Source: an uncultured Clostridia bacterium (lineage in GTDB: Bacteria > Bacillota > Clostridia > Oscillospirales > Ruminococcaceae). Taken from it: DNA of 64,000 nt. The position numbers and the translations under genes are program-made. The notes below the pieces were generated by a model. It was not told where the DNA came from and did not search any database. It saw only the letters and a program-made list of their open reading frames with translations. Location of the stretch: positions 1 through 64,000 of the forward strand of contig CANQUJ010000006.1 in NCBI GenBank assembly GCA_947627005.1. Direction: 5' to 3'. Of the stretch, positions 12,239 to 60,175 are shown piece by piece; within the stretch, counting starts at the first letter, position 1, and every line of letters starts with the position of its first letter.

Positions 12239-12241
12239 GCG

Positions 12242-12278
12242 AAAAGGGCCCGAAACTTCGCGTTTTGAGCCCTTTTTT
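12242..12278 (+). terminator. Terminator after mfd
   Basis: AAAAGGGC pairs with GCCCTTTT around an inner short stem and is followed by a T-run. It ends the glmU-pth-mfd operon. Confidence 0.85.
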
Positions 12279-16669: not shown

Positions 16670-17800
16670 TCACCCTATCCTCCCGACGATATCGCGCACG
16701 TCGCTGTCGTAGAGGTGCCCGTAGGTTTTGGCTATCTGCTCGACGTTGTCGCCGATGAGCTCGGCGACGGTGTGGTAATTCGCGCCGAGGTGTATGCACA
16801 TCGAGACGAACGAGTGGCGCAGGTCGTGAATCCTTATCACCTTGACGTCCGCTTTCTTGCAGTAGCGCCGAAAAGCGCGGGTGATGGTCGTCTCGGGGAG
16901 AGGGCACTCGCCGCCGAAGAAAAACGGCGCCTCGCCCGCATAGCTCGCGAGCTCGTCCCTCACGGTCTTGCAGATCGGAATAGTCTGCGACCTGTCGGCC
17001 TTAGTCGAGGTGATTTTATATGTGCTTCCGTCGATGGTCTTTCGGGTGTAAGTTTTGTTGATGACGATCTTATCGCCCTTGATGTCTTCGGGCATAAGCG
17101 CCAAAAGCTCGCCCTTGCGACGGCCGGTATAGAACATCATCGTGAACAGGCAGTGGAGCCTCGGGTCGTCGACGGCCTCGATAAAGCGGTCGAATTCCTC
17201 TTTTGTCCAGAACTGCATTTCGGTTTTGGGGGCGCGGCGCTTCGGCAGAACGACATCGGAAAGATTGTTCGGGTAGCCGTAGCGGCTTCGGCACCATTCT
17301 AAAAAAGAGGAGAGCAGCGCCCGAATTTTCTTCAAATAGCTGTACGAATACGGTTCGCCGGTGCGCGGGTTCTTCATACTCCAGACGGCGTCCTGCCAAC
17401 GATAAAGTTCCTCTTTCGAGAGAGCTGTTATTTTTTTATCGCCCAGAAGCGGAAGCACGAAGTTTTTATAAATTTTCTGCTTATCGTAGATCGAGCTTTC
17501 TTTGTTCTGCCCGCCGAGGGTGAGCATATATTGCGCGATGAGTTCCGAGACGGTCGGTTCGGCCTTCTCGGGCTTTATTTTTTTGAGAGGATTGTTTTTG
17601 AGGAGCTCGCAGTTTTCGGTGACGAATGAGGTATATGCTTCTTTGGCAAGAGTCTTGGTCTTGTAGCCCGATAAACGCTTGTTTTTCAAAGCCCCGTCCG
17701 GCGTTACGACTCTAAAAAAGACATCGTACACTTTTCCGTGCTTCTTGGTCTGACGCTCTTGTATGCTGTATTTTGTTGAGGAAATATAAAATTGCGGCAT
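16670..17800 (-). CDS. int: Tyrosine-recombinase integrase of the element
   Basis: This 376-residue phage integrase catalyses attP/attB recombination at the tRNA-Ser gene. The N-terminal part fits the AP2-like and SAM-like arm/core-binding domains. The catalytic domain shows the first arginine in TGRRKGELL (near residue 225), HDLRHSF (near 327) and the nucleophile in KTYGHLYDSD (near 360). It reads toward attL, as is usual. It lies at the end of the leftward lysogeny module, 22 bp after the DUF3800 gene, and may be expressed with it. Confidence 0.95.
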   Translation of the reverse strand: MPQFYISSTKYSIQERQTKKHGKVYDVFFRVVTPDGALKNKRLSGYKTKTLAKEAYTSFVTENCELLKNNPLKKIKPEKAEPTVSELIAQYMLTLGGQNKESSIYDKQKIYKNFVLPLLGDKKITALSKEELYRWQDAVWSMKNPRTGEPYSYSYLKKIRALLSSFLEWCRSRYGYPNNLSDVVLPKRRAPKTEMQFWTKEEFDRFIEAVDDPRLHCLFTMMFYTGRRKGELLALMPEDIKGDKIVINKTYTRKTIDGSTYKITSTKADRSQTIPICKTVRDELASYAGEAPFFFGGECPLPETTITRAFRRYCKKADVKVIRIHDLRHSFVSMCIHLGANYHTVAELIGDNVEQIAKTYGHLYDSDVRDIVGRIG

Positions 17801-32086: not shown

Positions 32087-32971
32087 ATGCCCCGAAAAAT
32101 CTACGGCTATGTCCGAGTAAGCACAAAGGAGCAAAATGAGGATCGGCAGCTCGTTGCCATGGCAGACGCAGGGGTCGGGCGGACGGATATTTTCATGGAT
32201 AAACAGTCGGGAAAAGACTTTGACCGCCCGGAGTACCAAAAGCTCATACGGCGAATCAAGCCCGGCGACCTCCTCTACATAAAGAGCATTGACCGCCTTG
32301 GCAGAAACTATGAGGAAATCCAACAGCAGTGGCGGGTCATAACAAAAGACAAAGGCGTGGATATTTGCGTGATAGATATGCCCCTGCTCGACACAAGGCG
32401 CGGAAAAGACCTCGTAGGAACTTTTTTAAGCGATATTGTGCTACAAGTGCTGTCATTCGTTGCCGAGAACGAGCGGCAAAACATCAGGCAAAGGCAAGCG
32501 GAGGGCATAGCCGCGGCGAAAGCCCGCGGGGTCAGATTCGGGAGATCGCCCAAACCGCTCCCGGACAACTTTCCGGAGATCGTGCGGCGATTCAATGACG
32601 GGCAAATCTCTCTGACCGAAGCAGCAAAAGAGTGTAAAATGCCGTTATCTACTTTCAGCGACCGAGCTCGCGGATACCTCGGAGCGGATTATGCCGCAAT
32701 CGGCAGAGGACGCTATCACTCGGCTGAAAGAATTTGCGCAGAGTGCAGTGAAACTTACAAACCGCATAGCCCAAATCAAAAATACTGCTGTGAGAAATGC
32801 GCCAAAGCGGCGGAGCTCAGACAGGCGGCTGCGAAAAGGCAGGAATTGAAAGAAGCAGGTACGTGCCCAATTTGCAGAAAAGCTCCGGCGGTTCCGGGAC
32901 ATGTAATGTGCAGCACGTGCCGAACCAAGAATAAAATCAGGCGGATAAAAGGAGCGACAAAGAGAAGGTGA
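32087..32971 (+). CDS. Serine recombinase (resolvase) with a C-terminal double zinc-ribbon extension
   Basis: The catalytic domain reads YGYVRVSTKEQNEDRQ with nucleophile Ser12, then SIDRLGRNYEEI, and a resolvase helix-turn-helix follows (SLTEAAKECKMPLSTF, near 175-190). Small resolvases normally stop here at about 190-200 residues. This one continues for about 95 residues with CAECSETYKPHSPNQKYCCEKC and CPICRKAPAVPGHVMCSTC, the same module as the free protein at 28813. It lies between 239-bp direct repeats. It may be an invertase or resolvase for element DNA; its target site is not obvious. Confidence 0.9.
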   Translation: MPRKIYGYVRVSTKEQNEDRQLVAMADAGVGRTDIFMDKQSGKDFDRPEYQKLIRRIKPGDLLYIKSIDRLGRNYEEIQQQWRVITKDKGVDICVIDMPLLDTRRGKDLVGTFLSDIVLQVLSFVAENERQNIRQRQAEGIAAAKARGVRFGRSPKPLPDNFPEIVRRFNDGQISLTEAAKECKMPLSTFSDRARGYLGADYAAIGRGRYHSAERICAECSETYKPHSPNQKYCCEKCAKAAELRQAAAKRQELKEAGTCPICRKAPAVPGHVMCSTCRTKNKIRRIKGATKRR

Positions 32972-36032: not shown

Positions 36033-36508
36033 AAAATGCAGTAATGATAAGCATACGCCCGAAATGGTGCGAGCTGATTACGAGCGAGGAAAAGACTATC
36101 GAACTTAGAAAGACTCGCCCGAAGCTTGAAACTCCCTTTAAGTGCTATATATATTGCACGAAAAGCAAAGAACCGTTTTCTTATGTAACGGATAAACCGA
36201 TCGATCGCAGCTGCGGCAAAATGTATAGGTTTATCAGCGGCGGCGTTGTAATCGGCGAGTTTATCTGCGACAAGATTTTTCCAATTTCTATTGAGTATTC
36301 GGATCCAAATTGTTACATAGCGCAAAAAGAATTTCCATACATCAGAATGACAGACAAAGAGATAATCGACTATCTCGGTAACGGTAAAATAGTATACAGT
36401 TGGCACATCTCTTGGCTGAAAAGATATCATAATCCCCAAGCGCTAAGCGCGTTCGGCTTGAAAAGACCGCCGCAGTCGTGGTGCTATGTCGAGGAGTTGA
36501 AGCAATGA
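36029..36508 (+). CDS. ASCH/EVE-like nucleic-acid-binding protein
   Basis: The start AVMISIRPKWCELITSEEKTIELRKTRP matches ASCH-domain proteins, a PUA-like fold that binds RNA or modified nucleic acid. 159 residues. It sits between two methyltransferase genes and overlaps the second one's start. Confidence 0.75.
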   Translation: MKNAVMISIRPKWCELITSEEKTIELRKTRPKLETPFKCYIYCTKSKEPFSYVTDKPIDRSCGKMYRFISGGVVIGEFICDKIFPISIEYSDPNCYIAQKEFPYIRMTDKEIIDYLGNGKIVYSWHISWLKRYHNPQALSAFGLKRPPQSWCYVEELKQ

Positions 36509-37123
36509 ACCTCGCCTACTGTATGGACTGTATGACGGCTATGAAGCAAATGCCGGATAAATATTTCGATCTTGCCGTGGTCGACCCGCCGTATGGACTT
36601 TCAAAAAGCAGTTCAAACGGCAGGGGCAAGCTTAAAAACCGCACGTTTAATCGCGGAAATATATCGCGATGGGACACTCCGCCGAGCGCGGAATATTTCG
36701 TCGAACTGTTTCGAGTATCGAAAAACCAAATTATCTGGGGCGGAAATTACTTTTCGTTGCCGCCGTGCAGGTGCTTTCTGGTATGGGACAAGCTCCAACC
36801 GTGGGAAAATTTCAGTCGCTGCGAGTACGCTTGGACAAGCTTCAATAAGCCCTCAAAGCTCTTTGCGTTCGACAATCGAACGGGCGGGAAAATCCACCCG
36901 ACTCAAAAGCCCGTAGAGCTCTACAAATGGATATATCAGCATTATGCTACCCCCCCCCGCAAAAATCTTAGACACTCACCTCGGCAGCGGGTCGAGCCGT
37001 ATCGCCGCATACGACGCAGGGCTTGACTTTGTCGGCTTTGAAATCGACCGCGAATATTTTGAAAAGCAGGAGGAACGCTTTGCCGCCCATACCGCGCAGA
37101 TGAGTTTTTTTATCGACCTTTGA
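36505..37123 (+). CDS. Phase-variable DNA methyltransferase (OFF in this sequence)
   Basis: A beta-class DNA methyltransferase: catalytic DPPY at residues 27-30 (VVDPPYGLSK), then GGNYF and HPTQKPVELYKWI. Straight after comes a run of nine C (36950-36958). As read, the frame leaves the gene and stops at 37026. Removing one C restores KILDTHLGSGSSRIAAYDAGLDFVGFEIDREYF, the AdoMet motif I and following strands, to a stop at 37123 (about 205 residues). The downstream part is intact, so the break is at the tract alone. This is a classical slipped-strand switch layout. Start at 36505 is coupled to the ASCH gene. Confidence 0.88.
36950..36958. repeat. C9 tract in the methyltransferase gene
   Basis: Nine consecutive C inside the coding region; eight (or five or eleven) would keep the frame. 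Confidence 0.9.
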
Positions 37124-45736: not shown

Positions 45737-46138
45737 ATGAAAAATTCTTATCCCATAGTCTTAACGCCGGACAAAAAAGGATTTACCGTCTTTATCCCGG
45801 ATTTTGAAATCAACACCGAGGGCGACGATCTCACGGAAGCGATCGAAATGGCGAGAGACGCCATCGGCCTTATGGGGATCGACATGGAAGACGACGGTAA
45901 GCCCTTGCCCGACGCGAGCCCGGTCGATTCGATATCCCGCAAAAATAACGAAATCGTTTCGCTCGTCGACGTAGATTTCGCGGAATATCGCAGAAAAAGC
46001 GATCAAAAGGCCGTAAAAAAGAACTGCACACTTCCTCGCTGGCTCTGCTACGAGGCAGAAAAGGCCAACATCAATTTTTCCTCGGTTCTTCAAACGGCCT
46101 TAAAAAAAGAGCTTAAAATCGAATCCCCCGGCAAGTAA
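45737..46138 (+). CDS. hicB: HicB-family antitoxin
   Basis: 133 residues. The N-terminal half (YPIVLTPDKKGFTVFIPDFEINTEGDDLTEAIEMARDAI) is the partially degraded RNase-H-like HicB fold; the C-terminal part (LPRWLCYEAEKANINFSSVLQTALKKEL) is a ribbon-helix-helix DNA-binding domain. It should bind HicA and repress the operon. AGGAGGT precedes the ATG. Confidence 0.93.
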   Translation: MKNSYPIVLTPDKKGFTVFIPDFEINTEGDDLTEAIEMARDAIGLMGIDMEDDGKPLPDASPVDSISRKNNEIVSLVDVDFAEYRRKSDQKAVKKNCTLPRWLCYEAEKANINFSSVLQTALKKELKIESPGK

Positions 46139-46149
46139 ATTTTGAAATA

Positions 46150-46264
46150 AAAAATGCGTTCCGCCCATATTCCCCCGAGCGAAACGCAAAAGCCCATTGA
46201 CAGATTATCCCATAACAGGTTTCTCCCATAAACAAGATTTATCCCATAACAGGATTTTTCCGTC
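46150..46264 (-). ncRNA. Candidate small RNA with tandem TATGGGA repeats
   Basis: A consensus promoter on the minus strand would start a transcript near 46264. It would contain four tandem units of about 15-18 nt around TGTTATGGGATAA. It would end at a hairpin TGCGTT...AACGCA followed by six T (about 46153-46190). No coding frame is obvious in it. It is divergent from the second tyrosine recombinase gene. Confidence 0.6.
46205..46249. repeat. Iteron-like repeats before the second recombinase
   Basis: TCCCATAA occurs at 46208-46215, 46224-46231 and 46242-46249. The first and last are in palindromic TTATCCCATAA. Possible binding sites for the recombinase or another protein. Confidence 0.7.
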
Positions 46265-46270
46265 TTCGGT

Positions 46271-46299
46271 ATTATACCACGCGGCGAAATTCCTGTCAA
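46271..46299 (-). promoter_or_regulatory. Leftward promoter of the repeat RNA
   Basis: On the minus strand TTGACA (46294-46299), 17-bp spacer, TATAAT (46271-46276). Confidence 0.85.
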
Positions 46300-46323
46300 C
46301 AGTCCAAAGAAAGGAATTTTGAA

Positions 46324-47331
46324 ATGAACCGCTACACAGAAAAATATTCAAATGCAAAAGCCTACTATCTCTCGAACCTCGAAATAACCGGCGCAAGCCC
46401 TAAAACGCTTCGCAACTACGAGCGCTCGCTTCGCCTCTTCCTCGATTTTTGGGGATCCTCTTCCCCGGAGTCCGACCCTTCCGCTTCCGATATAAGGGCG
46501 TGGCGCGATTATCTAACCGAAAACGGCCTCGCCGCGTCGACCGTTCGCTGCTATCTAAGCGATCTTTCGTATTTCTTCTCCGCGATGTCCGACCCTTCCC
46601 TTGAAGAAGACAGGGCTTACAACTCCAACCCCGTAAGCCGAAGATTCTACCCGAAGATCGAATCCCGCCCCTACGATATGATTTTAACCGACCGGCAGGT
46701 TTGCCGCCTTTGGCTTCGCGAAAAGCCCTTGGCGGAAAAAGTGAAATACTTCCCGCGAAACTACGCTATCGTCGTGCTTCTCTTAACCTCCAAAATCCGA
46801 AACGCCGAGCTTCTTAATTTAAGGCTCTGCGATATCGACTTTGACAACGACGAAATAACCGTCGAGCGTGGCAAAGGCGGAAAATTCCGAAGAGTATATC
46901 TTCAACCGATAGCGAAAAGCGGGATCCGCCTCTATCTCGAATCCGGCATAAGGCCGCAATCAGCGGGGTCCGACGATTATCTTTTCGGAACGACTTCGGC
47001 TGCTTCGTTCGGAACCAACGACCGAACCGAGCAATGGCACAAAGGAAGCTCTCAATGGCTTTCGGATATCGTCGAGCGCTATGTTTTCAACGCCGTGGGC
47101 GTTCACGGCGTAAGGACTCACGATTTAAGGCATATAGGCTCGCGGTTAGAGCTTAACAGCGGTTCGAGTATCGAGCTTCTTCAATCCGAGCTCGGCCATT
47201 CCTCGATCGTCACCACACAGATCTACACCGGCAGACTCGAAGCGCGGGGCGAACGCGCAAGCGCGATAAAAGCCCTCGCAGAACGCGACCGGCAGGCCGA
47301 AAACAATTTTGAATTGATAAGACCCGCTTGA
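46324..47331 (+). CDS. Second tyrosine recombinase (XerC/D-like)
   Basis: 335 residues with the SAM-like N-terminal domain (SPKTLRNYERSLRLFLDF) and a catalytic domain. Conserved residues: Arg in SKIRNAELLNL, Lys in RGKGGKFRRVYL, HDLRHIG, LGHSS and Tyr in TTQIYTG. It is more like Xer-type enzymes than like the att-proximal integrase. It lies next to iteron-like repeats, so it may act on a local site, for example DNA inversion or dimer resolution. AAAGGAATTTTGAAATG contains its ribosome binding site and the common TTTTGAAAT string. Confidence 0.9.
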   Translation: MNRYTEKYSNAKAYYLSNLEITGASPKTLRNYERSLRLFLDFWGSSSPESDPSASDIRAWRDYLTENGLAASTVRCYLSDLSYFFSAMSDPSLEEDRAYNSNPVSRRFYPKIESRPYDMILTDRQVCRLWLREKPLAEKVKYFPRNYAIVVLLLTSKIRNAELLNLRLCDIDFDNDEITVERGKGGKFRRVYLQPIAKSGIRLYLESGIRPQSAGSDDYLFGTTSAASFGTNDRTEQWHKGSSQWLSDIVERYVFNAVGVHGVRTHDLRHIGSRLELNSGSSIELLQSELGHSSIVTTQIYTGRLEARGERASAIKALAERDRQAENNFELIRPA

Positions 47332-47339
47332 TTTTATAA

Positions 47340-47373
47340 CAAAGCCCCGCTTAATGTCGCAGCGGGGCTTGTA
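47340..47373 (+). terminator. Terminator-like hairpin after the second recombinase
   Basis: AAGCCCCGCT pairs with AGCGGGGCTT; the T-tract is weak. Confidence 0.6.
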
Positions 47374-47461
47374 ATTTAATCTAACTTGCGCTATAATAAT
47401 TATATATAGACAAAAATATTGAAACCCTTTGCGATTTTCTTTTGAAAGGACTTTTTGTTTT

Positions 47462-47635
47462 ATGCTTCCCAAACTCAACGTCGTAACCGAAAGGTTTTCC
47501 ATCGAAGCGACTTCCCAAAACGACCCCGATTCAAAAAGATTATTCGTGATCGAGGCCGAAAGCTTAGAAGCCGCTCGTCTAAGGCTGCCGGCGGGGTGGA
47601 TAGCCGTTACCGGCGTAAAAAAAGAAAAGGAGTAA
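47462..47635 (+). CDS. Hypothetical protein
   Basis: 57 residues, AAAGGAC upstream. Ends with SLEAARLRLPAGWIAVTGVKKEKE. It directly precedes the next gene. A TATAAT at 47395-47400 may serve as -10. Function unknown. Confidence 0.55.
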   Translation: MLPKLNVVTERFSIEATSQNDPDSKRLFVIEAESLEAARLRLPAGWIAVTGVKKEKE

Positions 47636-47639
47636 AGCT

Positions 47640-47930
47640 ATGAACGGCGACATCGGGCAGATAAAATCCTTTGCCGATAACATTTGGAGTTATATCGAAC
47701 CTAAAATCGACAAAAAGCTTGCAGACGGCGTTCGCTATTATAAGGCGAGCGTTGTACAAAATCCCCGAGACGGAAAAATCAAAATTCAGCGCCCGTTCGA
47801 GGATTCCCAAATCGAGCTCCCCTGCGCCGCCTCGGCAGCCTCGCTTAAGGCCGGCGACCAATGCTTGATTCTCGTCTTCGGCTCCGCCTCAAACTCATAC
47901 GTCGTCGGAAAGGCCGATTTCACCGCTTAA
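47640..47930 (+). CDS. Small beta-barrel-like phage protein
   Basis: 96 residues: helical front, then YKASVVQNPRDGKIKIQRPFEDSQIELPCAASAASLKAGDQCLILVFGSASNSYVVGK. The second half looks like a small barrel seen in phage baseplate-associated proteins. It is oriented opposite to the tail genes it faces. Function not shown. Confidence 0.6.
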   Translation: MNGDIGQIKSFADNIWSYIEPKIDKKLADGVRYYKASVVQNPRDGKIKIQRPFEDSQIELPCAASAASLKAGDQCLILVFGSASNSYVVGKADFTA

Positions 47931-47934
47931 ATAA

Positions 47935-47976
47935 AAGCCGCCCCGCTCGCTTTTCGCAGGCGGGGCTTTTTATGCC
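47935..47976. terminator. Terminator between rightward accessory and leftward tail genes
   Basis: GCCCCGC pairs with GCGGGGC, with A-rich left and T-rich right flanks. Confidence 0.8.
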
Positions 47977-47988
47977 AAAATGCGGATT

Positions 47989-48512
47989 TTACGAGATTAT
48001 TACAGAGTCGATCACCAGTTGTGTTTGAGTGTAAAGAGTATCCGGCCCGATCATAATGACCAGACTGTTTTTATAGTAGTCATACCCCGCTTTTTCAAGC
48101 TGCTCTCTCGTAAAAATGACTCTTTTTCCGATAGTGTCTCCAACCATTGTGGTTTTATCGGTCACATAGTTGCCGCTAAGGTTTTCCGCAAGTCTCACCG
48201 TAATTACTTGGGCGCTGCGGTTGCCGCTTCTTCTATCGGCGTATTCCACTTGAATGGTTTTCCAGTTTTCATAATCGCTTGTCGTCGGCGGGCCGTATAC
48301 CGAAAATGGATAAATACATAATTGAATATTCCCGCTCAAGTGCATACCGCGATTTTCTATACTGCTGCTTCCGTGGGTATAACCGCTGATATATGAATAG
48401 CTTAACCGCCCTTCATCTTGAAGCTTTTCCCAATCGGCTTGGGTCTCGATTATAACCGGCAACCCCCCCCCGATTTCAAAAGCGCTCTTCTTCTACTGAA
48501 AAAATCCTGCAT
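47989..48512 (-). CDS. Phase-variable tail-tip paralogue 4 (OFF)
   Basis: From the ATG at 48512 (GGAGGAATATAAA upstream) it reads MQDFFSRRRALLKS, the same start as its neighbours. A G9 run (48463-48471) follows. As read, the frame stops after six more residues. G10 or G7 would join it to LPVIIETQADWEKL and a 157-residue body that stays open to 47989 and ends ...LVIDSVIIS. The body is beta-rich with no known motif; ENWKTIQVEYADRR aligns with NW.t.. in the paralogues. Probably a receptor-binding or tail-tip protein, by position and family pattern. Confidence 0.75.
48463..48471. repeat. G9 tract (C9 on the + strand) in tail-tip paralogue 4
   Basis: Interrupts the gene after codon 14; out of frame here. 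Confidence 0.92.
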
Positions 48513-48534
48513 TTTATATTCCTCCTGTTTTGAT

Positions 48535-49153
48535 TTATGATATTTTTATTTCGGTTATGGTTGCGTATGCCCATGTCATAAGGCCGGTCCAAATTCCGAG
48601 GCGCCGCTCGGCGATGTCTATATCTTCATATTCTATCGGCGTTCTCCGTTGCAATTCACTTCGGTGAAACACATAAGTGTAAGTCTTTCCTTCTTGAGAC
48701 GAGGGCTTATAACAATTGGTCGCGTAAAATTTTTCGACCGGTTTATTTTGAAAAGTCCCTCCTCTGTTGTAAGTGTCATAAAATATATGCTGCGAAACAT
48801 TTATATTTGCTGACGGGCCGGTATATATAAATTTTATTTCTACCGTTTGCCAGTTCTTAAGCGCGGGGTGTAAAACGTTTATTTCTCCTGCGCTTTGGAA
48901 TGGCAGAAAAATAATCGAGCAGCCGGTATAAAAGCCTTCATCTGTAATAACGTATTTATCGGCTATTGAATTTTCCACATAATCACCGCTCCATTCGGGA
49001 TTTAATATAAGTTTATAGCCTTCGGTTTTAAAATTCCAGCTATTATATTTTAATACGTTTTCAATACCCCCCCCCGCACGAATAATAAGTATAAGGCAAG
49101 CTTATGTCGCCGCTGCTTAAAAGCGCCCGCCGCCTACTGAAAAAGTCTTGCAT
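48535..49153 (-). CDS. Phase-variable tail-tip paralogue 3 (OFF)
   Basis: From ATG 49153 it reads MQDFFSRRRALLSSGDISLPYTYYSC, then a G9 run (49067-49075). As read, a TGA follows four codons later. With G8 the frame continues as IENVLKYNSWNFKTEGY through VENSIADKY to the stop at 48535 (about 205 residues), with no other interruption. NWQTVEIKF and the end ATITEIKIS match the other copies. AGGAGGAAAAACT precedes the start. Function inferred as tail-tip/receptor binding. Confidence 0.77.
49067..49075. repeat. G9 tract (C9 on the + strand) in tail-tip paralogue 3
   Basis: Lies directly after codon 26 (TGC); out of frame here, in frame with eight. Confidence 0.92.
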
Positions 49154-49164
49154 AGTTTTTCCTC

Positions 49165-49707
49165 CTATATTATTTCAATTTTTGTTATGTAAATGTCTTT
49201 GGGATTCCACTCGTTGGAGCCGAGGAATATAGAACCGTTGGGGCTAACCGGCGAACTCTGTACGTTGATAACCGAGATCTCCGAGTTTGTTCTTATGTCG
49301 AACATGCCCAAAACAGCTAAAGGTTTAGCTGACGACTGACTCGGCTTGTGGCCTTGATACGCGAATATAACCCCCCCCGCCGAATTTTCGGTGGTAACAA
49401 GAATCGTTCGCCAGTTTTTGAGCCCGCTGTGAAGCTTGCGATAGTTTACGCTCGAATCGTCCGTAGATTCCCAAGGCAATTCAACCATCATATAGCTGCT
49501 CGCTCGGCAGCCCAAGCCGCTCGAATAGTCAGTAACAAACGGAAGAGGAAAGACCGAATAGGCCGTTCCCGAGCGATCGACGTTAAAGCTTTTAACCGTC
49601 TCTAATCCGATTTTGTTGTATTTGTCGAAATACACATACGGAAGCTCGATCTTAGCTTCCCCCGCCGAGGTAAAAAGCTGCCTTCTCCTGCCGAAAAATT
49701 CATGCAT
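49165..49707 (-). CDS. Phase-variable tail-tip paralogue 2 (ON)
   Basis: 180 residues in one open frame: MHEFFGRRRQLFTS at the start, LKNWRTILVTTENSAGG in the middle and DIYITKIEII at the end. The middle carries a G8 run (49371-49378) coding for the glycines near residue 111; here it keeps the frame. A change by one base would cut off the last 40 percent. AGGAGGAATTGAT precedes the ATG. The only copy of the array that is fully open in this sequence. Confidence 0.8.
   Translation of the reverse strand: MHEFFGRRRQLFTSAGEAKIELPYVYFDKYNKIGLETVKSFNVDRSGTAYSVFPLPFVTDYSSGLGCRASSYMMVELPWESTDDSSVNYRKLHSGLKNWRTILVTTENSAGGVIFAYQGHKPSQSSAKPLAVLGMFDIRTNSEISVINVQSSPVSPNGSIFLGSNEWNPKDIYITKIEII
49371..49378. 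repeat. G8 tract (C8 on the + strand) in tail-tip paralogue 2
   Basis: In frame here, coding A-G-G-V around residues 110-113. Confidence 0.92.
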
Positions 49708-49767
49708 ATCAATTCCTCCTATATTTTAATTATATCATAATTTGATATGATTTGCAATACATTTGTA

Positions 49768-50360
49768 TTATCTTATCACTATTTTATTTATAGTGTAGCG
49801 CGGAAAGTTTATATAAATCAGCAGTCTTCTCAAGCCGATATCAAGATCTTTGTATTTTGCATATTCCGGCGTGCCTCCGTTATCTATCATTTCGCTTCTT
49901 TTGAAGATTGTTGAAATCATTTTGTCCTTCTCATAGCTTATTTTCTTGTTTATAGACCTACTTAAATACTCATGATTATATACTCCTCCGTCGCTCGTAT
50001 CTTTTTGTGATATTTGAAAATACATATCATAATATAGGCCGATAGACCAAGAAACATTTTGATATGCGGTATCTGTATTTCGATTTCTTGCCAGTTTCCC
50101 AAGCCGTCCGCCAAAACAAGCCCGTCTGGGGTCTCTTTATAAGGCATATTCACATAATAAGATCCGTTGCATAATCCGTTAAAGTCGCTCGGAAAAGCGT
50201 CGAACAAGCCGTAGCTGCCTCCAGAAAAATATAAACGTTCCGGCGTAGAGTTATATTTCAGAATCGCTTGATTGCTTCCGCCCTCTTCCCAATAATTATA
50301 CGGAAGAGGAATTGATTCCGACGGCAGTATAAGCCTTCTTCTGCTCATAAATTCGTTCAT
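49768..50360 (-). pseudogene. Tail-tip paralogue 1, frameshifted without a long tract
   Basis: From ATG 50360 (GGAGGGC upstream) it reads MNEFMSRRRLILPSESIPLPYNYWEEG up to GNWQEIEIQI. The homology then continues one frame away as NVSWSIGLYYDMYFQISQKD, ending RYTINKIVIR at 49768. One base seems missing near 50066-50076 (CAG-AT). No homopolymer is present, so this looks like a fixed mutation, not a switch. Confidence 0.7.
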
Positions 50361-50377
50361 TTTAAGCCCTCCCCTTT

Positions 50378-50935
50378 TTAATTCGAGACCTTTTTGTCGT
50401 GCTTCTTCCAAACCATAACCGAATTGATGATCGAAAACTCCCATTCCTCTTCGGGCTTGGCCTGCGTAAAGTCGTCTCCGCTGACGAATATTTCCGTGGC
50501 GCTCTTAAGCGTTATCCCGCTTATCCCCTTTAAAAACCCCCAAGCGGTAACCGTGCTCGGGCTTAGAGTAACCGTAAGCGCGTGCTCGTTAAGGGTTATG
50601 TTGTAATAGGTCATATCTTTAAGGGTGATCGAGCAGTCGGCGTCTTTGTTAAGGCTTGCGCCGTTGTCAATCGTAAAGCCGTCCAAATACGGAAACGCCG
50701 ATTTTTTTAAATGCCCGCTCTCATCAAGCCCCGCGACTCCGTTTGCCGCGTTTTTCTCTTTGCTTTCGATATAATCGGAATCCTCGAAGTTTTTAATCTT
50801 CTTTTCTGCTTCCTCGATGGCGGTTTCGTGGCCGACAAGGGTGTCGCTGATTGCGTTAAGCTCTTCGGCGTTCAAATAGGGCGCGGAATCGTTTTTCCAC
50901 CCGGGGTTCTTGTATTTTCCCTGCACTACCGGCAT
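50378..50935 (-). CDS. Tail fibre/baseplate-attached protein (putative)
   Basis: 185 residues. The front (GKYKNPGWKNDSAPYLNAEELNAISDTL) followed by a short coiled coil (ETAIEEAEKKIKNFEDSDY) is a common start of tail-fibre proteins. A beta-rich part follows (SLNKDADCSITLKDMTYYNITLNEHALTVTLS). It sits directly upstream of the paralogous tail-tip array and may be the fixed stalk for them (inference). Confidence 0.7.
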   Translation of the reverse strand: MPVVQGKYKNPGWKNDSAPYLNAEELNAISDTLVGHETAIEEAEKKIKNFEDSDYIESKEKNAANGVAGLDESGHLKKSAFPYLDGFTIDNGASLNKDADCSITLKDMTYYNITLNEHALTVTLSPSTVTAWGFLKGISGITLKSATEIFVSGDDFTQAKPEEEWEFSIINSVMVWKKHDKKVSN

Positions 50936-50941
50936 AATTTT

Positions 50942-51145
50942 CTACCTCTCTTTCGTAATTGCTTCTCGGTCGACTTTTCTTTGCTCGATTAAAGCTATGT
51001 CGGGGTGAGATTTAGAAAAGGCCGTGCCCTCGCAGATATAAAACCTGCCGTTCTCGCCGGTAATCTCATACTCGCGCCCGCTTTTAAGTTTTAATATCCT
51101 TGCGGTCCTTTTTGCAGCGGTTTGCTGCGGTTTTTTCTTGCTCAT
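50942..51145 (-). CDS. Small basic phage protein of the tail operon
   Basis: 67 residues: ARILKLKSGREYEITGENGRFYICEGTAFSKSHPDIALIE. GGAGGAGGAAT upstream of the ATG. Found among tail genes; function unknown. Confidence 0.65.
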   Translation of the reverse strand: MSKKKPQQTAAKRTARILKLKSGREYEITGENGRFYICEGTAFSKSHPDIALIEQRKVDREAITKER

Positions 51146-51151
51146 ACTTTG

Positions 51152-52519
51152 TTATTCCTCCTCCGTGTCGGTTATCGTAGCGACGGGAAAATCGTGAACC
51201 GAAACTGCGTTGATCGTCATTTCCCCATTTGCCGTCAAGGGTCTTGAAAAGCCTAAAATCAAGTGCCGTTCAACCGGCGAGCCCTCTTTGTCGGTTCTGA
51301 CTATCGAAATAAGCCTGTTTTCTTGAATGTGCAATATTTGAGAACACGAGATTGTAACCGCCTTTTTAAGAATCGTCGCCCTTTTAAGCTCCCAAGCCGC
51401 GCGATCCTCGCACTGTTTGTTCGTAACATACCCCGGCGCGCTTTCCCTTATCGTCTTTCGGCCTATAAGGTTTACATTCGTGTCGCTCTTCGGGTCAAGA
51501 TTTTGCGCCCTGCCCCTCGGCTGCGAATAGTCGTCGAGCTGCTCTCCGTATATGATGTAATCGTTGTATACCTCGGTATTTTTAACCTCGTAGGTCATGC
51601 CTAAAAGCGTTGTCTCTTTCTCCGAAAACTGCCAGATAACCGGCTTGGTGTCGTCTAAAATGTCGTCCTGCGAGGGGTCTATCCTAAGCGCGCCCAATTC
51701 GTCATACCCGACTACGGCGTTTACCGCTCCGGCTAATTCAAGAATAACGTCCGCCTTTTTGTCGCTTCCTCCGTCCTTCCTAACGGTATAAGGAAGATCG
51801 GTCATCTTAACGGTGCTGCCGTCCGGCAATTCCTGCGTTCTTTGGTTGTAATACTCGGTGTATATCGGCTTAATTCCGTCTAAGGGGCGGCCGTTTCCTC
51901 GGTCTTCGCTTAGCAGAGCCGAGATCGGCTCAAAAATATTCGTTCCGACTGCAACCTCGTAAGTCCCTTCAAGATTTCCGAAAAGCGTTCCGTCAAGATT
52001 CGCCCATTTATCCACAAGGTTATAGGTCATCGTCCGCGAGTTCGGCAAAATCTCTTCGCTCGGCGTGTCGATCAAAAATACGCCCTGCTGTATATAAAAA
52101 TCCGTGCCGTCCGCCAAAACAAGCCCCTCGTCAAGAGCAATCTCCTGCCCGAACCAAATGTTGTTCACATTGTACTGAAAATCCGAACCGTAATTCGCAA
52201 GGGTAACGCTCGCAGTCCTGCGCCGCCCGTTCTGAAAATTGACCGATATGCTTCCGTCCGTGATATATGCCTGCCCGCGCCGCTTTTTAGTGCTGTTGTC
52301 AACCGCAAACGCCGTCGAGCGGTCGGGGTTCAAAAATCGCAGTCTGCAAAGCTTTCTAAACGGTGTTTGCAATACCCTCATATAGTCTATATATCGGTTT
52401 TTCCTGTCCCAAGGACCGAGAACGGTAAAGTTCTTCCCGTCCGAACATAAAATAGGTCCGTCCGAGCATAGAAAGTCGACGTCTTGAAGATGAAGATACT
52501 CTATGTTCGTTTTGCTCAC
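51152..52519 (-). CDS. Phage tail/baseplate protein (DUF5048-like)
   Basis: 455 residues, beta-rich, with RGQAYITDGSISVNFQNGRRRTASVTLAN, FLIDTPSEEILPNSRTMTYNL and VVGYDELGALRIDPSQDD. The pattern fits DUF5048-type tail proteins, which relate to gp27/Tal-like baseplate hubs. The start codon is uncertain: the GTG at 52519 has GGCGGAG very close upstream. It follows the 118-residue gene with an 18-bp gap. Confidence 0.75.
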   Translation of the reverse strand: MSKTNIEYLHLQDVDFLCSDGPILCSDGKNFTVLGPWDRKNRYIDYMRVLQTPFRKLCRLRFLNPDRSTAFAVDNSTKKRRGQAYITDGSISVNFQNGRRRTASVTLANYGSDFQYNVNNIWFGQEIALDEGLVLADGTDFYIQQGVFLIDTPSEEILPNSRTMTYNLVDKWANLDGTLFGNLEGTYEVAVGTNIFEPISALLSEDRGNGRPLDGIKPIYTEYYNQRTQELPDGSTVKMTDLPYTVRKDGGSDKKADVILELAGAVNAVVGYDELGALRIDPSQDDILDDTKPVIWQFSEKETTLLGMTYEVKNTEVYNDYIIYGEQLDDYSQPRGRAQNLDPKSDTNVNLIGRKTIRESAPGYVTNKQCEDRAAWELKRATILKKAVTISCSQILHIQENRLISIVRTDKEGSPVERHLILGFSRPLTANGEMTINAVSVHDFPVATITDTEEE

Positions 52520-52900: not shown

Positions 52901-54964
52901 TCACTCCCAACTGACTATTGAAACGTTTTCCGAATCTCCCACTTCAATCCAAGGAATAGAGACTGTCTGCGCTTGCTCTCTAAGATTATCCGCCGTGCTC
53001 GCCGTAATCGCTCCCGACGTCTTGATTTGAATAAGATCGCCCTTGCGATTCTTTAAAAACAGCGTATTTTGAGAAGTCGCCAACGCAAATATTTTGTCGC
53101 GCTGCTCTATCGTGTCTCTATATGCAATCTTACCGTCCTCGTTCATCTCAATCTTCCCGATAAGTCCGCTTAGGGTTCCGCTCTTATATTCCGCAGAATC
53201 CGGCTGAACCGTGGGAAATTTTGTAAAGTTGCGAAGAACGTTAGGCGAATTGTTGTTAGAAGTCGTCCCGCTCGAAACATTATAGGCGAATCTGTATTCT
53301 TCCAAAAGGCAATAATAACCCTCTTCGATTTCGGCACATTCGAGTATGACCCAGTCCCACCGAACGGGGCTTATTTCGTTCGAGACAAAGGGCTGCGTGG
53401 CAAACGAGGTTTCGGTATAAGGGAACGCATAATAGATATACGGGCCCTGCTCGTTTGCGGCGGCATAGTCGAACAACACCGTCGATTCGGTGTCCGAGAT
53501 ATGAACCAAAAAGCCGCTGTCCTTTTTCCTGCGGTAAACCGAATAACCCGCAATAATTCCGTCGATTGAATTAGAAGTTCCCGCGTTAAGGGATTTATAA
53601 GCAAGAAACAGATCTTCGTCGACGTGCTCCGGGACGTATGTATCGGTCTCGTATACCGCCTCGATCGTCTCGTTCTTCGGCTCTCCCGAAAGTATCTCGA
53701 TATATTCTATTTTCTGTCTGCCGTCCGTTTCAATCGCAGTAATTCCGCCTTGGACGTAGTCCAAATCGCACATATACCGGGACGTAGACACCGCGCCGCT
53801 CGAAGGAACCAGAGTTGAGCTCGGGGTAAGGGCTTCGCTCGGCGCAAGAGCCCCTTGCAGCCCGGTGATTCTCGCATACATTCTCTCGGGGGTAAAAATC
53901 ACGGAAACGATCGAGCCTTTTTCCACAGAACCGTCCGGCAATTCCGCAAGCGTAAAATTGCCTCGCGTAATCGAAAGCGTTTTCCTGTCCGAGAGATACT
54001 TAAACCTAATCGCGCCGGGGACTGTCGAAAGCTTCATAATCCTAACGTCCGAGTCATATACGGCGGTTTTGAAAATAAGCGTCCAAGGGTCGCCGAAAAG
54101 CATATCCTTGCCGTCGACGTTGTCCCAGACTATATTCGAGTCGGGCCCTATTTCGATTTCGCCGGAATTTTCGTCGAGCTCAACCTCGCCGGTGGTCTTC
54201 CCGATAATGCTGTATATGCCCGGCCACGAAAGCGCGACCGCCGATCTTCCTTTCGCGCACGAAGCTTTGATTGCGCCGGTTATGGATATCGTCTCGTATT
54301 CGACGTGAAAATCTATCCACCCGGTATCGGCTTCTATTCCGTTTGCGGTCTGCGCCCTGCAACGAACCGAATAGTCGGTACCTGTGAAAAATCCATCGTA
54401 TTCCGTTTGCAAAAGCGAAACGCCGTATATGTATTGCGAATCGTAAAAGGGCTCGTCGGTGTTGTCGGCCTCGGCTATCTGCCACCGAACCCAGTTTAAG
54501 GGGTCTCCCTGTTCTTGATAATAAGTAGCGCCGAATAAATACTTGTTTGCGGCAAGCGGCGAAGGAATTTCGTCTATACTCAACGAAGGCGCGGTTCTTG
54601 TGATGAACACCGAGGCGCTTTGCTGCGTAATGCTCTCGCTTTCGCTCCACCATTGAGTGATAATAAGCTTATATTCTTCGCCGTTTACCATTCCGGCCTG
54701 CTTCGGGCTCTCAATCTTGTAGCTGAAAAATTTATAGTTTCCAAGGCGGTCTTTGCCCTCAAACGGGCAGTTTTCGGTAAGCTTTCCCGTAGAATAAACC
54801 AACGTGCTTTGAAAATCATTCTTGTATATCCCGATAGAAAAGGCCGTCATCGGAGAATTTCCGTTTATCTGCCAAGATATTTCAAGAGGCTTCTCGGCGT
54901 CGACCGTTCCGCCGCCGAGTCCCATCGAATCGGACGGGAAGATGTTAGTCGGTTGAAAAAGCAT
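52901..54964 (-). CDS. Large tail/baseplate protein
   Basis: 687 residues, beta-rich. The front has fibronectin-III-like segments (PLEISWQINGNSPMTAFSIGIYKND, VRWQIAEADNTDEPFYDSQYIYG). A middle segment (SWPGIYSIIGKTTGEVELD) is followed by more beta repeats and a C-terminal region found in Clostridial phage tail proteins. Its place right after the tape measure suggests a distal tail or tail-associated structural protein. GGAGGAAG precedes the ATG. Confidence 0.75.
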   Translation of the reverse strand: MLFQPTNIFPSDSMGLGGGTVDAEKPLEISWQINGNSPMTAFSIGIYKNDFQSTLVYSTGKLTENCPFEGKDRLGNYKFFSYKIESPKQAGMVNGEEYKLIITQWWSESESITQQSASVFITRTAPSLSIDEIPSPLAANKYLFGATYYQEQGDPLNWVRWQIAEADNTDEPFYDSQYIYGVSLLQTEYDGFFTGTDYSVRCRAQTANGIEADTGWIDFHVEYETISITGAIKASCAKGRSAVALSWPGIYSIIGKTTGEVELDENSGEIEIGPDSNIVWDNVDGKDMLFGDPWTLIFKTAVYDSDVRIMKLSTVPGAIRFKYLSDRKTLSITRGNFTLAELPDGSVEKGSIVSVIFTPERMYARITGLQGALAPSEALTPSSTLVPSSGAVSTSRYMCDLDYVQGGITAIETDGRQKIEYIEILSGEPKNETIEAVYETDTYVPEHVDEDLFLAYKSLNAGTSNSIDGIIAGYSVYRRKKDSGFLVHISDTESTVLFDYAAANEQGPYIYYAFPYTETSFATQPFVSNEISPVRWDWVILECAEIEEGYYCLLEEYRFAYNVSSGTTSNNNSPNVLRNFTKFPTVQPDSAEYKSGTLSGLIGKIEMNEDGKIAYRDTIEQRDKIFALATSQNTLFLKNRKGDLIQIKTSGAITASTADNLREQAQTVSIPWIEVGDSENVSIVSWE

Positions 54965-54977
54965 ATACCTTCCTCCG

Positions 54978-56682
54978 TTACTGATTTTTATAAAGGGCCA
55001 AATTGCCGGTCAAACGTACAAGATCGTAAAGCGTAAGCGTTTTAGCTTGGCCTTCCGAAAGCGTGATATTCCCGAACTGATACACGCTTCCTTTATACTG
55101 CGTTCCGATATTTTCTTCGCTCTTTCCCATAATGCGCGAAAGTGATTTTTCGGGGCTGCCGTACATAAGGTTCAGCTCCGAAAGCCGCTGTAAGAACGTC
55201 GAAGAAGCCGTCGGCGACAAAAGCGATTTCGATATGTCGGGCGGCAAAACGATCTCGTCCTTCGCCGTCGCCTTTATTCCGCCGATTCCTTTTAAAACTC
55301 CGCCCGAATCGAAGACTTGACCGTTTAACATCTTGTTTACGATTTCTCTGATGATTTCGTAGTCATATCCGAGCGCTTCTATTGCCCTTCTCCTTGCGGA
55401 ACCGTTTCCAAATTCGCCGCGTATTACTCTTCGCGCAAGATCTATCATATCTTGCGTGTAATATTGATTCGAGCCGGCAGACTCAATGATCGGGTCGTCA
55501 TCGACAATTTCAAAGTCGCTACCGGGCGGGCTGTATGGGCTGTAATAGCTGTTGCCGCCCACCCAAGGCGAAGAAAATCCCGCCGTACTTACTCCGAGGG
55601 TTCCCGAAAGGAAGCTTCCGAGGCTTGAAAGAAGTTGATTTACGTTGTCGATGTTTTGCCTCATAAGGGGCGTTCCGTATGTGGCGATGTCCTGCAAAAT
55701 AGCGGTTATGCTCCTTGTTGGGGCTTGAAGCGAATCTACCGCGCTCTGCCACTGTGAGGAAAGGGCGTTGTACTGCGAATTTATAAGATCCTTTTTTCGC
55801 TCGATCTCCCTTTTTGCGGCGTCGTATTCGGCGTCTATGGCGCTTTTCTGCTTTTTAATACTGCTTTCTATGGCGTCGTATGCCGCTTGAACGGCGATTT
55901 TTTTGTCCTCTATCGCTTGAAGAGCGGCATTGTAGGCAAGCTCGGCGCGGTAGCTTTCAAGGTCTTCTTTGGCCTGCTCTAAGGCGTCTTCGGCTGATTT
56001 TACATTGACCTCATCGGCGCGCCATTCCCATTGCTTTGTGTCGCTGTTATAATAGCGGACCGTTCTCTCGCGCCTTGCCTTTTCTAAGGCGTCTTCCGCC
56101 TCTTTGACCGCAAGAATCTTTTCTTCAAGTTCAAGTTGGTTTTCCTTTTCCTCTTTTGCGGTCTTAAGGGCCTCTTCTTCGGCCTCGATAGCCGACATGC
56201 GGCTGTCGAATAACTGCTTCTGCCCTTCAAGCTCGGCGTCTAAGGCTTCGTTGCGGCTGTCTCTAAGGTCTTCCAAAGAATCAAGCTGCTTTTCGAGCTG
56301 CTCGATCTGTTCGTCCGCAAGGTCCTTTGCTCTTTCAAGCTCCGAGTTGACCGCGCTTTCCAACTCGTTTTGAAGATCCTCTTGAAGCTTTTTAAGCGAT
56401 TCGGCTTCGCTCTCGATCAGATCGTTTATCTTTGCGTTCCAGTCGTACCATTCCGCCGCTAAAGCGTTAATGTCTTCCTGCGAGCCTCCGATAGATTCGA
56501 GATAGCTCTTTTCGGCGTTGATACTCGTCTTTTGTTATTTCTCCGCTCTTTTCGGGCTTTTCACCGTTATCGAAGATCAATATGTATCTCTGCGTTATCC
56601 TCGAAAAGCGCCTATTCTCCGCAAGCTTTATATTCTCTTGATTCAAAGCCGCGGCGTACAGCTTATATTCGTTCTTGCTCAA
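54978..56682 (-). pseudogene. C-terminal half of a tail tape-measure protein, frameshifted
   Basis: The body is a long coiled coil with ERTVRYYNSDTKQWEWRADEVNVKSAEDALEQAKEDL, then a glycine-rich part and the end DSGGVLKGIGGIKATAKDEIVLPPDISKSLL, all typical of Clostridial tape-measure C-termini. A frame break at an A4 run (56509-56512) separates the first about 57 codons (starting at a TTG at 56682) from the rest. Even joined, it has only about 565 residues and lacks the N-terminal and membrane-spanning parts. It overlaps the stop of the terminase gene. Confidence 0.8.
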
Positions 56683-58529
56683 AACAATTTTCCCCCGTGG
56701 CGCTGCGTAATCAGTCGACTGCTCGCGCTATAATTGACCGTGTTGTTCAAAGCGCCTTGTTCCGCTTCGCGTATAAGCCTATCCCAGTCGCTTTCCCTCT
56801 TCGACGTCGAAAGATTCGCCTTTTCAAGCTTTTGCGCAAGCCTAAGAGCATATTTCAAAGCGGACCAACTGTCTCTTTGAATCCTGTGAGAAATGCGCTT
56901 TTCACATACTCCCGCGCCGGAGACGCCCTTTTTAAGGTTTCTGATCTGATCTGCGAGCTCGTTCGTCTTTTTATATGGGCTCGATATGGCAACGTCAAGG
57001 CGGGAATCCTTTATTCTGTGAGTCCTTTTATAAGCTTCAATGCCCGCGTATATGTTGGAGGTCAATAGCGACACGTTTCGGTTGTCAAACTGAATCTCGG
57101 CATATCTGACCATTTCGGAATCGGGATCCGTCGTACCTACTCCGCCCGCCTTTATGGGATATATAACGGGAAGTGCACCTTCAAGTTCAAGCTCCGTATA
57201 TTGATCGTGGTTTATAACGCACAGCGGCGCGAGCCCATCGTCGAGATTACTCATCAACGCTTCCGTAACCGCCTTGCCGTATTGCCAACAGTCGATGGAT
57301 ATATATGTCTCGCTTCCCTCGTAGCAAAATCTGTACCACACTTGCTTAAGCCTTCGGGCCTGCTCTCTCTCGGTCATTCCGAGCGGAGACCAATCGTCGA
57401 GGTAGACAACGTCCTTTTTATATTTATCTCTGCGATAATAATCTTTCTGCTTGGTAAGCTTAACCACCGCGCAAGCGCATTTCGCGTTATTCGCGCCGTC
57501 CTCATAAGCCACATCGTAGCCGACAATGTATATTACCTCTTCGGGCTTAAGCTGATTGTCGCGATCCTTGCAGCAATGGTGCTCTTCCATAAGGATCAAA
57601 TCTCTGCTTGCGGTTAGAATTTCGTCTCTGACTATCGGATTCTCGTCGGTACCCGTATATAGGCTTTCCATTTCTCGCATAAACTCTTCGGGAGTTGACT
57701 CGTGCTTTCTCTGCATAGCCCACGAATACGAGCGCATTTGACTTAAAACGATAACCGTCCACGGAATGTCCATAACAAAGGCGCTTTTGCCTTCCAACAT
57801 CATCTTGAGGTGCTTGCAACGGGTCTCGAAGCTGTGATTCTGCTTTCGCCCCGCCGAAGTGATGGTATGCTGCTTAAACTTAATAAACGTCGGATCGTCT
57901 TCGCCCTGCACCCTGTGAGTAAGCCTAACTGCATATAGAACAATAGATGTGTATTCGCGATAGTCGAACGGCGGATCTTCCTCCTGCGCATATTCCTCTG
58001 CGGTGACGTCGTGAATGTTTTGCCCGCGCAAGGCGTTGATGGTAATGCTCGACCCGAATTTCGTCGATATCGCCCAACTGTCCTTGCTTTGGGAATCTAT
58101 CATGTAATGCCTCGCTATGGCGGGAAAGTCCTTTTTAAGCTGTACGAAGGCTTCTTTTGCAAGCGCAGCCTGCTGTTTATAGCTTGGCCCGTAGTAGCTC
58201 GAATTTGTCGCGGGAAACAAAATGTTTTCCGCAATCTTTTGCTTTATTTTGGTGCTCGTCTTGGTGGCGGAACGGCAGCCGGTTATGTCGACGAATTGAT
58301 ATCGCGCAAAAGCTCTCATCATCACACGCTGTATAAGCTCTTCCGTCTTATATTTGGAATCGGGAGCGCGAAAGACATCGTACATAACATCGGGGTACCA
58401 CCTAAAGAACGAAATCAAGAACGCCCAAGATTCGTTGGCATATTCGGTGTAGTCGCGCGCCCACTCGTCGTTTACCTTAGTCCAGCCGCGGCCTTCGACC
58501 CACGCCATACCGATTTTTCTGCCCGCCAT
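56679..58529 (-). CDS. terL: Terminase large subunit
   Basis: 616-residue packaging motor. The ATPase region has TGCRSATKTSTK (about residues 82-93) as a deviant Walker A and DVTAEEYAQEEDPPFD as the Walker B/catalytic region. The nuclease half has YIVGYDVAYEDG (first metal-binding aspartate, near 345) and SIDCWQYG. Length and order match phage terminases. It is followed directly by the tape-measure fragment instead of a portal gene. Confidence 0.88.
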   Translation of the reverse strand: MAGRKIGMAWVEGRGWTKVNDEWARDYTEYANESWAFLISFFRWYPDVMYDVFRAPDSKYKTEELIQRVMMRAFARYQFVDITGCRSATKTSTKIKQKIAENILFPATNSSYYGPSYKQQAALAKEAFVQLKKDFPAIARHYMIDSQSKDSWAISTKFGSSITINALRGQNIHDVTAEEYAQEEDPPFDYREYTSIVLYAVRLTHRVQGEDDPTFIKFKQHTITSAGRKQNHSFETRCKHLKMMLEGKSAFVMDIPWTVIVLSQMRSYSWAMQRKHESTPEEFMREMESLYTGTDENPIVRDEILTASRDLILMEEHHCCKDRDNQLKPEEVIYIVGYDVAYEDGANNAKCACAVVKLTKQKDYYRRDKYKKDVVYLDDWSPLGMTEREQARRLKQVWYRFCYEGSETYISIDCWQYGKAVTEALMSNLDDGLAPLCVINHDQYTELELEGALPVIYPIKAGGVGTTDPDSEMVRYAEIQFDNRNVSLLTSNIYAGIEAYKRTHRIKDSRLDVAISSPYKKTNELADQIRNLKKGVSGAGVCEKRISHRIQRDSWSALKYALRLAQKLEKANLSTSKRESDWDRLIREAEQGALNNTVNYSASSRLITQRHGGKLF

Positions 58530-60083: not shown

Positions 60084-60102
60084 TGGCGGAGCAGGAGAGA
60101 TT
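60084..60102. repeat. attR, right attachment site
   Basis: The same 19-bp core as attL, here the genuine 3' end of the tRNA-Ser gene. Confidence 0.92.
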
Positions 60103-60175
60103 CGAACTCTCGGACGGCTTATCACCGTCACACGATTTCCAGTCGTGCTCGTTATGACCGCTTCGATACTGCTCC
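60084..60175 (-). tRNA. tRNA-Ser (anticodon GGA)
   Basis: 92 nt including encoded CCA. The acceptor stem GGAGCAG/CTGCTCC is perfect with discriminator G. The anticodon arm CACGA-CTGGAAA-TCGTG gives anticodon GGA. A long variable arm (serine type) and TTCGAATC in the T-arm are present. It is intact after integration because the element brought its own copy of the 3' end. Confidence 0.97.

Follow-up and report, generated by a model that had tools for sequence, protein, structure and literature searches.

The question raised by this locus is whether four consecutive small tail genes, three of which contain long tracts of G, form a set of switchable tail parts or are the debris of a decaying prophage. 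The locus lies in a 64,000-nucleotide stretch of DNA from an uncultured Clostridia bacterium (contig CANQUJ010000006.1), referred to here as the window, and consists of four diverged paralogues, all on the minus strand, located behind a conserved tail module and numbered copies 1 to 4 in their order on that strand (Table 1). The reading favored here, to which we assign a probability of approximately 0.72, is that of a phase-variable tail-tip cassette made up of several genes. Each gene would encode a small tail-tip protein with a diverged body behind a short N-terminal anchor common to all, and the poly-G tracts of three of the four genes would gain or lose G residues through slipped-strand mispairing. 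Each body would be switched in or out of frame independently, and a population of phage or lysogens would present differing combinations of tail tips. We infer that the array proteins bind receptors, that slippage takes place in this host and that the resulting combinations are used.

A preliminary description of this DNA had reported four paralogues with a shared start, an NW core and ribosome sites of their own, and all of these features were found in the four copies. A GGAGG-type ribosome site is present ahead of each copy, the anchor M(N/H/Q)(E/D)F(F/M)(S/G)RRR is common to all four, and the NW core was found in each. Copies 2, 3 and 4 also share a 53-nucleotide direct repeat that takes in both the ribosome site and the anchor. 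Pieces of the other copies showed 18-39% identity to copy 2, indicating that the bodies are strongly diverged. The three long G runs reported in the array were located (G9, G9 and G8), and frame analysis bore out the claim that copies 3 and 4 are broken at the tract and that copy 2, in which the reading frame is uninterrupted with the G8 included, is in frame. In copy 3, the start frame runs for 30 codons to a stop and another frame is open for 176 codons after the tract; in copy 4, the start frame runs for 20 codons and the other frame is open for 157 codons. The tract occupies a different codon in each of the three paralogues. A "short beta end" had also been ascribed to the copies, and this could not be confirmed, the structure models being of low confidence: predictions from a five-row input for copy 2 and for the piece of copy 4 that lies after the tract were mainly beta, with pLDDT (predicted local distance difference test) scores of 46 and 52.

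Changes in the length of such tracts were found in other phages. The contigs L278 and L279 come from two metagenome data sets and share the tail module of the window; their alignment of 21,254 columns is free of mismatches and has a single gap. Their sole difference over 21,253 bases was a G tract of 10 versus 11 residues just ahead of a tail-tip gene. This tract is 44 bases ahead of the ATG of the tail-tip gene, inside a short leader open reading frame (ORF) that has a ribosome site of its own. In L279 the stop codon of the leader overlaps the start codon of the tail gene and in L278 the leader ends sooner, and translational coupling between leader and tail gene is possible. A second leader tract, a G10 at position 2920, was of equal length in both contigs. 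In the L043 fibre family, which is unrelated to the tail module of the window, one leader tract contained 12 G residues in L288 (the L043 contig itself), 10 in L289 and 8 in L291, and was absent from L290; the other leader tract contained 9, 9, 10 and 9 G residues in L288, L289, L290 and L291, respectively. The phages of this family also diverge elsewhere by 2-5%. The leader architecture was recurrent: in a short ORF that has its own ribosome site, the G tract falls around codon 8-14, and the tail gene follows some 35-65 bases on. At the level of sequence comparison, phase variation by slippage is thus supported through relatives. The slipped-strand switching proposed in the preliminary description gains from the single-G change in 21 kb of L278/L279, located in a leader, and from the series of 8, 10 and 12. 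Likewise, of the "phase-variable receptor-binding cassette" named there, phase variation is favored through the relatives and receptor binding stands as a proposal.

Phages that share the tail module were then compared at the position of the array. The tail protein used as a marker showed 62% identity to that of the human faecal phage contig MT835723.1, and 27% identity to those of two Thomasclavelia phages; profile searches yielded further relatives among viral contigs and in three metagenome-assembled genomes. With L278/L279 taken as one and L283/L042 as one, 11 relatives were counted, and runs of G8-G11 at or near tail-tip genes occurred in four of them (MT835723.1, L276, L278/L279, and L283 with L042). 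In MT835723.1, the module and a gene resembling the small tail gene ahead of the window array are followed by two paralogous glycine-rich genes, the first of which carries a G10 approximately 10 codons past its start. L042 contains three tandem small paralogues, one with a G8 in frame and one with a G9 out of frame; this array is linked to the tail module of L283 by a shared contig. A gene of L042 similar to the small gene beyond the window array is found approximately 1.7 kb past the array with the tracts. As for the small tail gene that precedes the window array, its similarity to the gene following the polymorphic tract of L278/L279 is confined to the first 26 residues.

A second copy of the window array was not found, and the collections searched may omit records very near the genome of the window. 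The search of the order for the same array, suggested in the preliminary description, returned nothing beyond the starting point: the anchor pattern gave three hits among 394 genomes, all in the genome of the window (copies 2-4), and no match among the viral contigs. The copy 2 protein matched its own genome alone among 99 genomes that included it. The tail protein gave its own match alone among 31 genomes of the genus and, as a single sequence, no relative among the viral contigs; a two-sequence tail profile gave none in the genome contigs. A protein of the tail family was present in 4 of 30 other genomes of the genus.

Viral contigs were also scanned for a ribosome site, an ATG, 12-42 bases and a G9, with C9 as control. 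Each scan returned at least 120 stretches, so that the figures are samples, and all counts refer to the matches listed. Loci with at least two start-proximal tracts on a strand were found in 18 of 120 stretches for G compared to 6 of 120 for C (Fisher p 0.016). By eye, 10 of the 18 multi-tract G loci were paralogous tail-gene arrays (L036, L038, L042, L043, L069, L079, L097, L119, L120 and L144), compared to none of the six multi-tract C loci. By reading, and with L043 and L119 counted once, eight tandem tail-gene arrays with at least two tracts were recognized besides L042. In L069, four tracts lie in the leaders of paralogous tail-collar genes (Pfam Collar in both of the two tested). Megablast of the L079, L038, L099 and L042 arrays against phage records gave no match, and a protein of the L079 array locus matched its own contig alone among viral contigs. 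The frequency of start-proximal tracts failed by itself as a discriminator, the open-frame filter being passed by 49 of 124 G tracts and 30 of 116 C tracts. L039 and L150 were discarded as multi-tract loci, as each proved to be a single interrupted run.

The position behind the tail module was occupied in some relatives by a different kind of element. In L030/L280 (12,790-15,783 in L030), one gene has an N-terminus resembling those of the MT835723.1 paralogues, ends in a DUF6273 domain and is followed by a reverse transcriptase, and in the genus relative L299 a reverse transcriptase lies behind the tail module (8,928-12,261). RVT_1 matches in L030 and L299 had E-values of 2.5e-12 and 2.4e-7, respectively. 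These enzymes possibly belong to diversity-generating retroelements, and their location behind the tail module supports the view that this slot encodes a variable, host-recognising part. We infer the receptor-binding role of the array from gene position and from the reverse transcriptases of these two relatives, and not from fold or homology. Two other diversification devices were considered for the window and rejected. The genome contained no PF00078 (RVT_1) match that would indicate a retroelement (controls matched in 3 of 14), and no long inverted repeats of the kind that bound an invertible cassette flank the copies (46000-51200, best pair 32 nucleotides at 72%).

Several observations weigh against a switching cassette. 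The frame of copy 1 is broken without any tract, as decay would have it; neither this break nor the internal deletion of the prophage figured in the preliminary description. None of the five array pieces matched a PHROG family at E < 0.05, which might have indicated a receptor-binding domain, and Foldseek gave no meaningful or usable match with the low-confidence models. No run of at least 8 was present in the available DNA of 7 of the 11 relatives (the contig of L277 ends soon past the module). L028, one of the two more distant Thomasclavelia phages, was also without a run of 8, and the stretches from the four genus relatives with a tail-family protein held no run of at least 7. In L276 and L278/L279, the tract is within a short leader and outside the tip gene. 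The length variation comes from relatives, and the window array is known from one assembly; L119 is identical to L289 over 4,071 bases including the tracts, may be the same record and adds nothing independent. Furthermore, G9 gave from 72 to 464 overlapping matches in the genomes G015, G001 and G002 of the genus, with runs of 25 in G001 and several near contig ends, and these long runs are probably sequencing artefacts. Finally, the head genes (portal and capsid) and the tail-tube gene of the prophage are gone in the assembly.

The last of these points was examined by comparison with L276, in which the terminase-like gene is followed by a gene that is truncated in the window and then by the portal gene. 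At the junction (56470-56682), the gene after the terminase-like gene is cut to approximately 65 codons (37% identity over 62 amino acids to the L276 gene) and runs into a tape-measure-like fragment. Because the truncated gene abuts a fragment that lacks its own beginning, the portal, capsid and tail-tube genes are missing between them. The L276 portal protein had no match in the genome of the window in a search made without a positive control, and the Pfam portal family PF04860 had a single match in the genome, on another contig. Unless the assembly is wrong, this copy of the prophage is probably defective, and the cassette, the head genes being lost in this strain, is probably left over from a phage that was functional until recently. 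The earlier suggestion that different tail tips arise from one prophage is therefore doubtful for this copy.

Such damage invites the explanation that a defective prophage is decaying and has left the array as debris, the frame breaks at the G runs being ordinary mutations or homopolymer assembly errors, with no switching involved. The deleted head genes and the neighbouring gene truncated at the junction are in its favor, as are the tract-free frameshift of copy 1 and the artefactual-looking G runs in several genomes of the genus. However, three runs of G8-G9 within 1 kb are not readily made by decay, and their occurrence at different codons of paralogues excludes a single inherited accident. 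Moreover, relatives carry G10-G11 in or ahead of their tail-tip genes, and in one pair of contigs a single G was the sole change. We consider it unlikely that decay accounts for the array.

It could also be proposed that the runs are constitutive transcriptional or ribosomal slippage sites, so that all copies are always partly expressed and tract length switches nothing. Runs of nine are established as possible sites of slippage during expression, and the presence of tracts of 8 and 9 together in one array agrees with such a role. However, the 8 to 12 G residues at one site among related phages point to an unconstrained DNA length and not to a tuned slippage length, which makes constitutive slippage a very improbable account of these tracts.

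In the window, G8 gave seven overlapping matches compared to a mean of 1.04 in shuffled sequences, of which 1 in 100 reached seven, and four G/C runs of at least 8 were seen compared to 0.83 expected under a third-order Markov model; there were six G/C runs of exactly 6 and none of exactly 7. Although GGG is an ordinary glycine codon (37 of 179 glycine codons in seven intact ORFs), the notion that base composition gave rise to the runs by chance, and that they serve no purpose, is extremely improbable, since the array has a higher AT content than the window (42% compared to 49% GC), none of 300 simulated third-order Markov windows contained three runs inside 1 kb, runs recur in relatives, and multi-tract loci are commoner for G than for C among the matches listed.

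The phase-variable cassette thus being the preferred reading, its surroundings are summarized in Table 1. The prophage seems to extend from an integrase to near a tRNA-Ser gene. It also encodes a RecT-like protein, a primase and two methyltransferases, together with an ORF that was judged by eye to be single-strand-binding-like.

Table 1. Positions of the array, its tracts and the surrounding prophage features in the window, and of leader-type tracts in other contigs.
Feature	Position	Strand	Remarks
Copy 1	49768..50360	-	Tail-tip paralogue; start 50360; frameshifted near 50,030-50,090, no homopolymer tract there
Copy 2	49165..49707	-	Tail-tip paralogue; intact, 180 amino acids
G8 tract of copy 2	49371..49378	-	Codon 110; in frame
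Copy 3	48535..49153	-	Tail-tip paralogue; anchor MQDFFSRRRALLSS
G9 tract of copy 3	49067..49075	-	Codon 27; frames differ either side
Copy 4	47989..48512	-	Tail-tip paralogue; start codon 48512; anchor MQDFFSRRRALLKS
G9 tract of copy 4	48463..48471	-	Codon 14; frames differ either side
Small tail gene ahead of array	50378..50935	-	31% identity over 90 amino acids to pre-array gene of MT835723.1
Small gene beyond array	47640..47930	+	28% identity over 86 amino acids, E 1e-11, to gene of L042 contig
Tyrosine integrase (second), adjoining array	46324..47331	+	
Tail protein, marker for finding relatives	51152..52519	-	PHROG 1887, E 5e-36
Large tail protein	52901..54964	-	42% identity to MT835723.1 counterpart
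Tape-measure-like fragment without its beginning	54978..56534	-	Reader's judgement; weak PHROG matches
Terminase-like protein	56679..58529	-	55% identity to L276 counterpart; function by reading, unnamed in PHROGs
DNA methyltransferase, split	36478..37123	+	
C9 tract within methyltransferase gene	36950..36958	+	
DNA-invertase-like recombinase	32087-32971		PHROG 125; prophage early region, approximately 15 kb from array
Integrase at one prophage side	16670-17800		
tRNA-Ser near other prophage side	60084-60175		
Leader-type tract, L278/L279	11,300-11,400		
Leader-type tracts, L276	7,390-7,480 and 14,760-14,850		
Leader-type tracts, L069, L120, L144, L097 and L043 family			

One of the methyltransferase genes of the prophage is itself split by a tract in the manner of the array genes, which speaks for switching. 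Its match to PHROG 67 covers positions 123-301 before the C9 run and positions 304-354 after it, in another frame, so that the break falls precisely between two conserved segments of the profile. Among the matches listed in the viral contig scan, methyltransferases outnumbered every other class of gene with a start-proximal G9: DNA methyltransferases made up as many as 18 of 49 downstream pieces of at least 100 amino acids compared to 1 of 30 in the C controls, the 18 being the sum of three Pfam families that may overlap (13 C5, 4 N6/N4 and 1 MT-A70). The corresponding Fisher p of 8e-4 is inflated by near-identical phages (L037/L056, L061/L105/L124 and L123/L128). Cytosine-methyltransferase-like genes that start with MPR(H/Y) and carry 9-14 start-proximal G residues were observed in nine IMG/VR loci (L037, L054, L056, L083, L091, L093, L102, L141 and L148). 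In seven of the nine, the longest open frame after the tract differed from the start frame, and these phage methyltransferases are likely to be phase-variable.

In the host, the genome of the window contained 20 distinct runs of G9 or longer, three of them inside the window. Three runs are associated with genes of a surface-sugar acyltransferase type: a hexapeptide acetyltransferase gene has one at its start (L022), an acyltransferase-3 gene has one close to its start (L023), and a second hexapeptide gene has one at its 3' end (L019). An ORF judged by eye to be epimerase-like, with no Pfam match, also has a run near its beginning (L020); another run lies in the signal region of what was read as an ABC-type lipoprotein (L004), and others lie approximately 55-150 bases ahead of secreted-looking genes or are unassigned (the loci reviewed included L013, L014, L024, L009 and L017). 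A glycosyltransferase gene at first taken to start at the L022 tract was dropped, as it is approximately 1 kb away. Two host runs are at contig ends (C19:1 and C26:101); in view of the artefact-like G runs in genomes of the genus, runs in this position are to be distrusted.

Switching of receptor-binding proteins by poly-G tracts is already known, and what is new here is the occurrence of tandem arrays, in a temperate phage. Hypermutable polyG tracts and phase variation have been described for Campylobacter phages (Sorensen et al. 2021, Cell Reports 35:109214, as cited in PMC11868660). A 2025 review presents receptor-binding protein phase variation in Fletchervirus as an exceptional case among phages (PMC11959909), and the Campylobacter host is described as using tracts of this type in its genes for surface structures (PMC11868660, PMC11959909). 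A sentence in another review ascribes hypermutable polyG tracts to phages of Pseudomonas aeruginosa and Bordetella (PMC9311878), which weighs against novelty outside Campylobacter; the two references behind that sentence are a study of PB1-like Pseudomonas phages and the Campylobacter paper. The "phase variation" of the T5-like phages DT57C and DT571/2 was set aside as a precedent because the term concerns the host O-antigen (PMC4728585). No report of poly-G tail-gene arrays in prophages was found among the top matches of a literature search, judged by title or start of abstract. The preliminary description knew of no such multi-gene tail array in this group; among these matches that holds for prophages, and it has to be narrowed with respect to the switching of receptor-binding proteins, which is known from Campylobacter phages.

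As in Fletchervirus, where poly-G tracts are reported to vary phage receptor-binding proteins, the window array has G tracts of approximately 8 or more with a length-dependent frame. Unlike Fletchervirus, the window holds a temperate phage of another bacterial group with four tandem paralogues and tracts in three of them, tract position varies by paralogue, a tract-split methyltransferase is present in the same prophage, and the system is known from sequence alone; leader-type tracts in the relatives are a further difference. The array resembles bacterial contingency loci, such as the poly-G tracts of surface-structure or restriction-modification genes in Campylobacter, in having a tract in or near the gene start, a frame set by tract length and a surface-related product, and differs from them in that the genes are phage tail genes. 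With the diversity-generating retroelements of phage tail tips it would share the slot behind the tail module (L030/L280, L299) and the presumed purpose, whereas variation in the window would be on/off and not point-mutagenic. Invertible tail-fibre cassettes of the Mu Gin type switch between alternative tail genes; unlike these, the window copies are without long flanking inverted repeats.

A broader proposition, which in our judgement is evenly balanced, is that tail arrays of several genes with poly-G tracts provide a means of diversification that is widespread among temperate and gut phages, has several origins and is interchangeable with retroelements at one slot. Each phage would carry several paralogues with independent tracts in the gene or in a leader ORF, and in the present case the prophage tail tips and the surface-sugar genes of the host would share the switch, so that the repertoires of receptors and of receptor-binding proteins would both be stochastic. 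If tandem, independently G-tracted tail genes do recur across unrelated phages, the host range of many gut phages would be a property of the population, set by slippage. Single assembled genomes would then misreport host range, and a gene that annotation calls "broken" could be a switch that is off. The occurrence of G tracts and reverse transcriptases behind one tail module makes the choice and timing of strategy testable.

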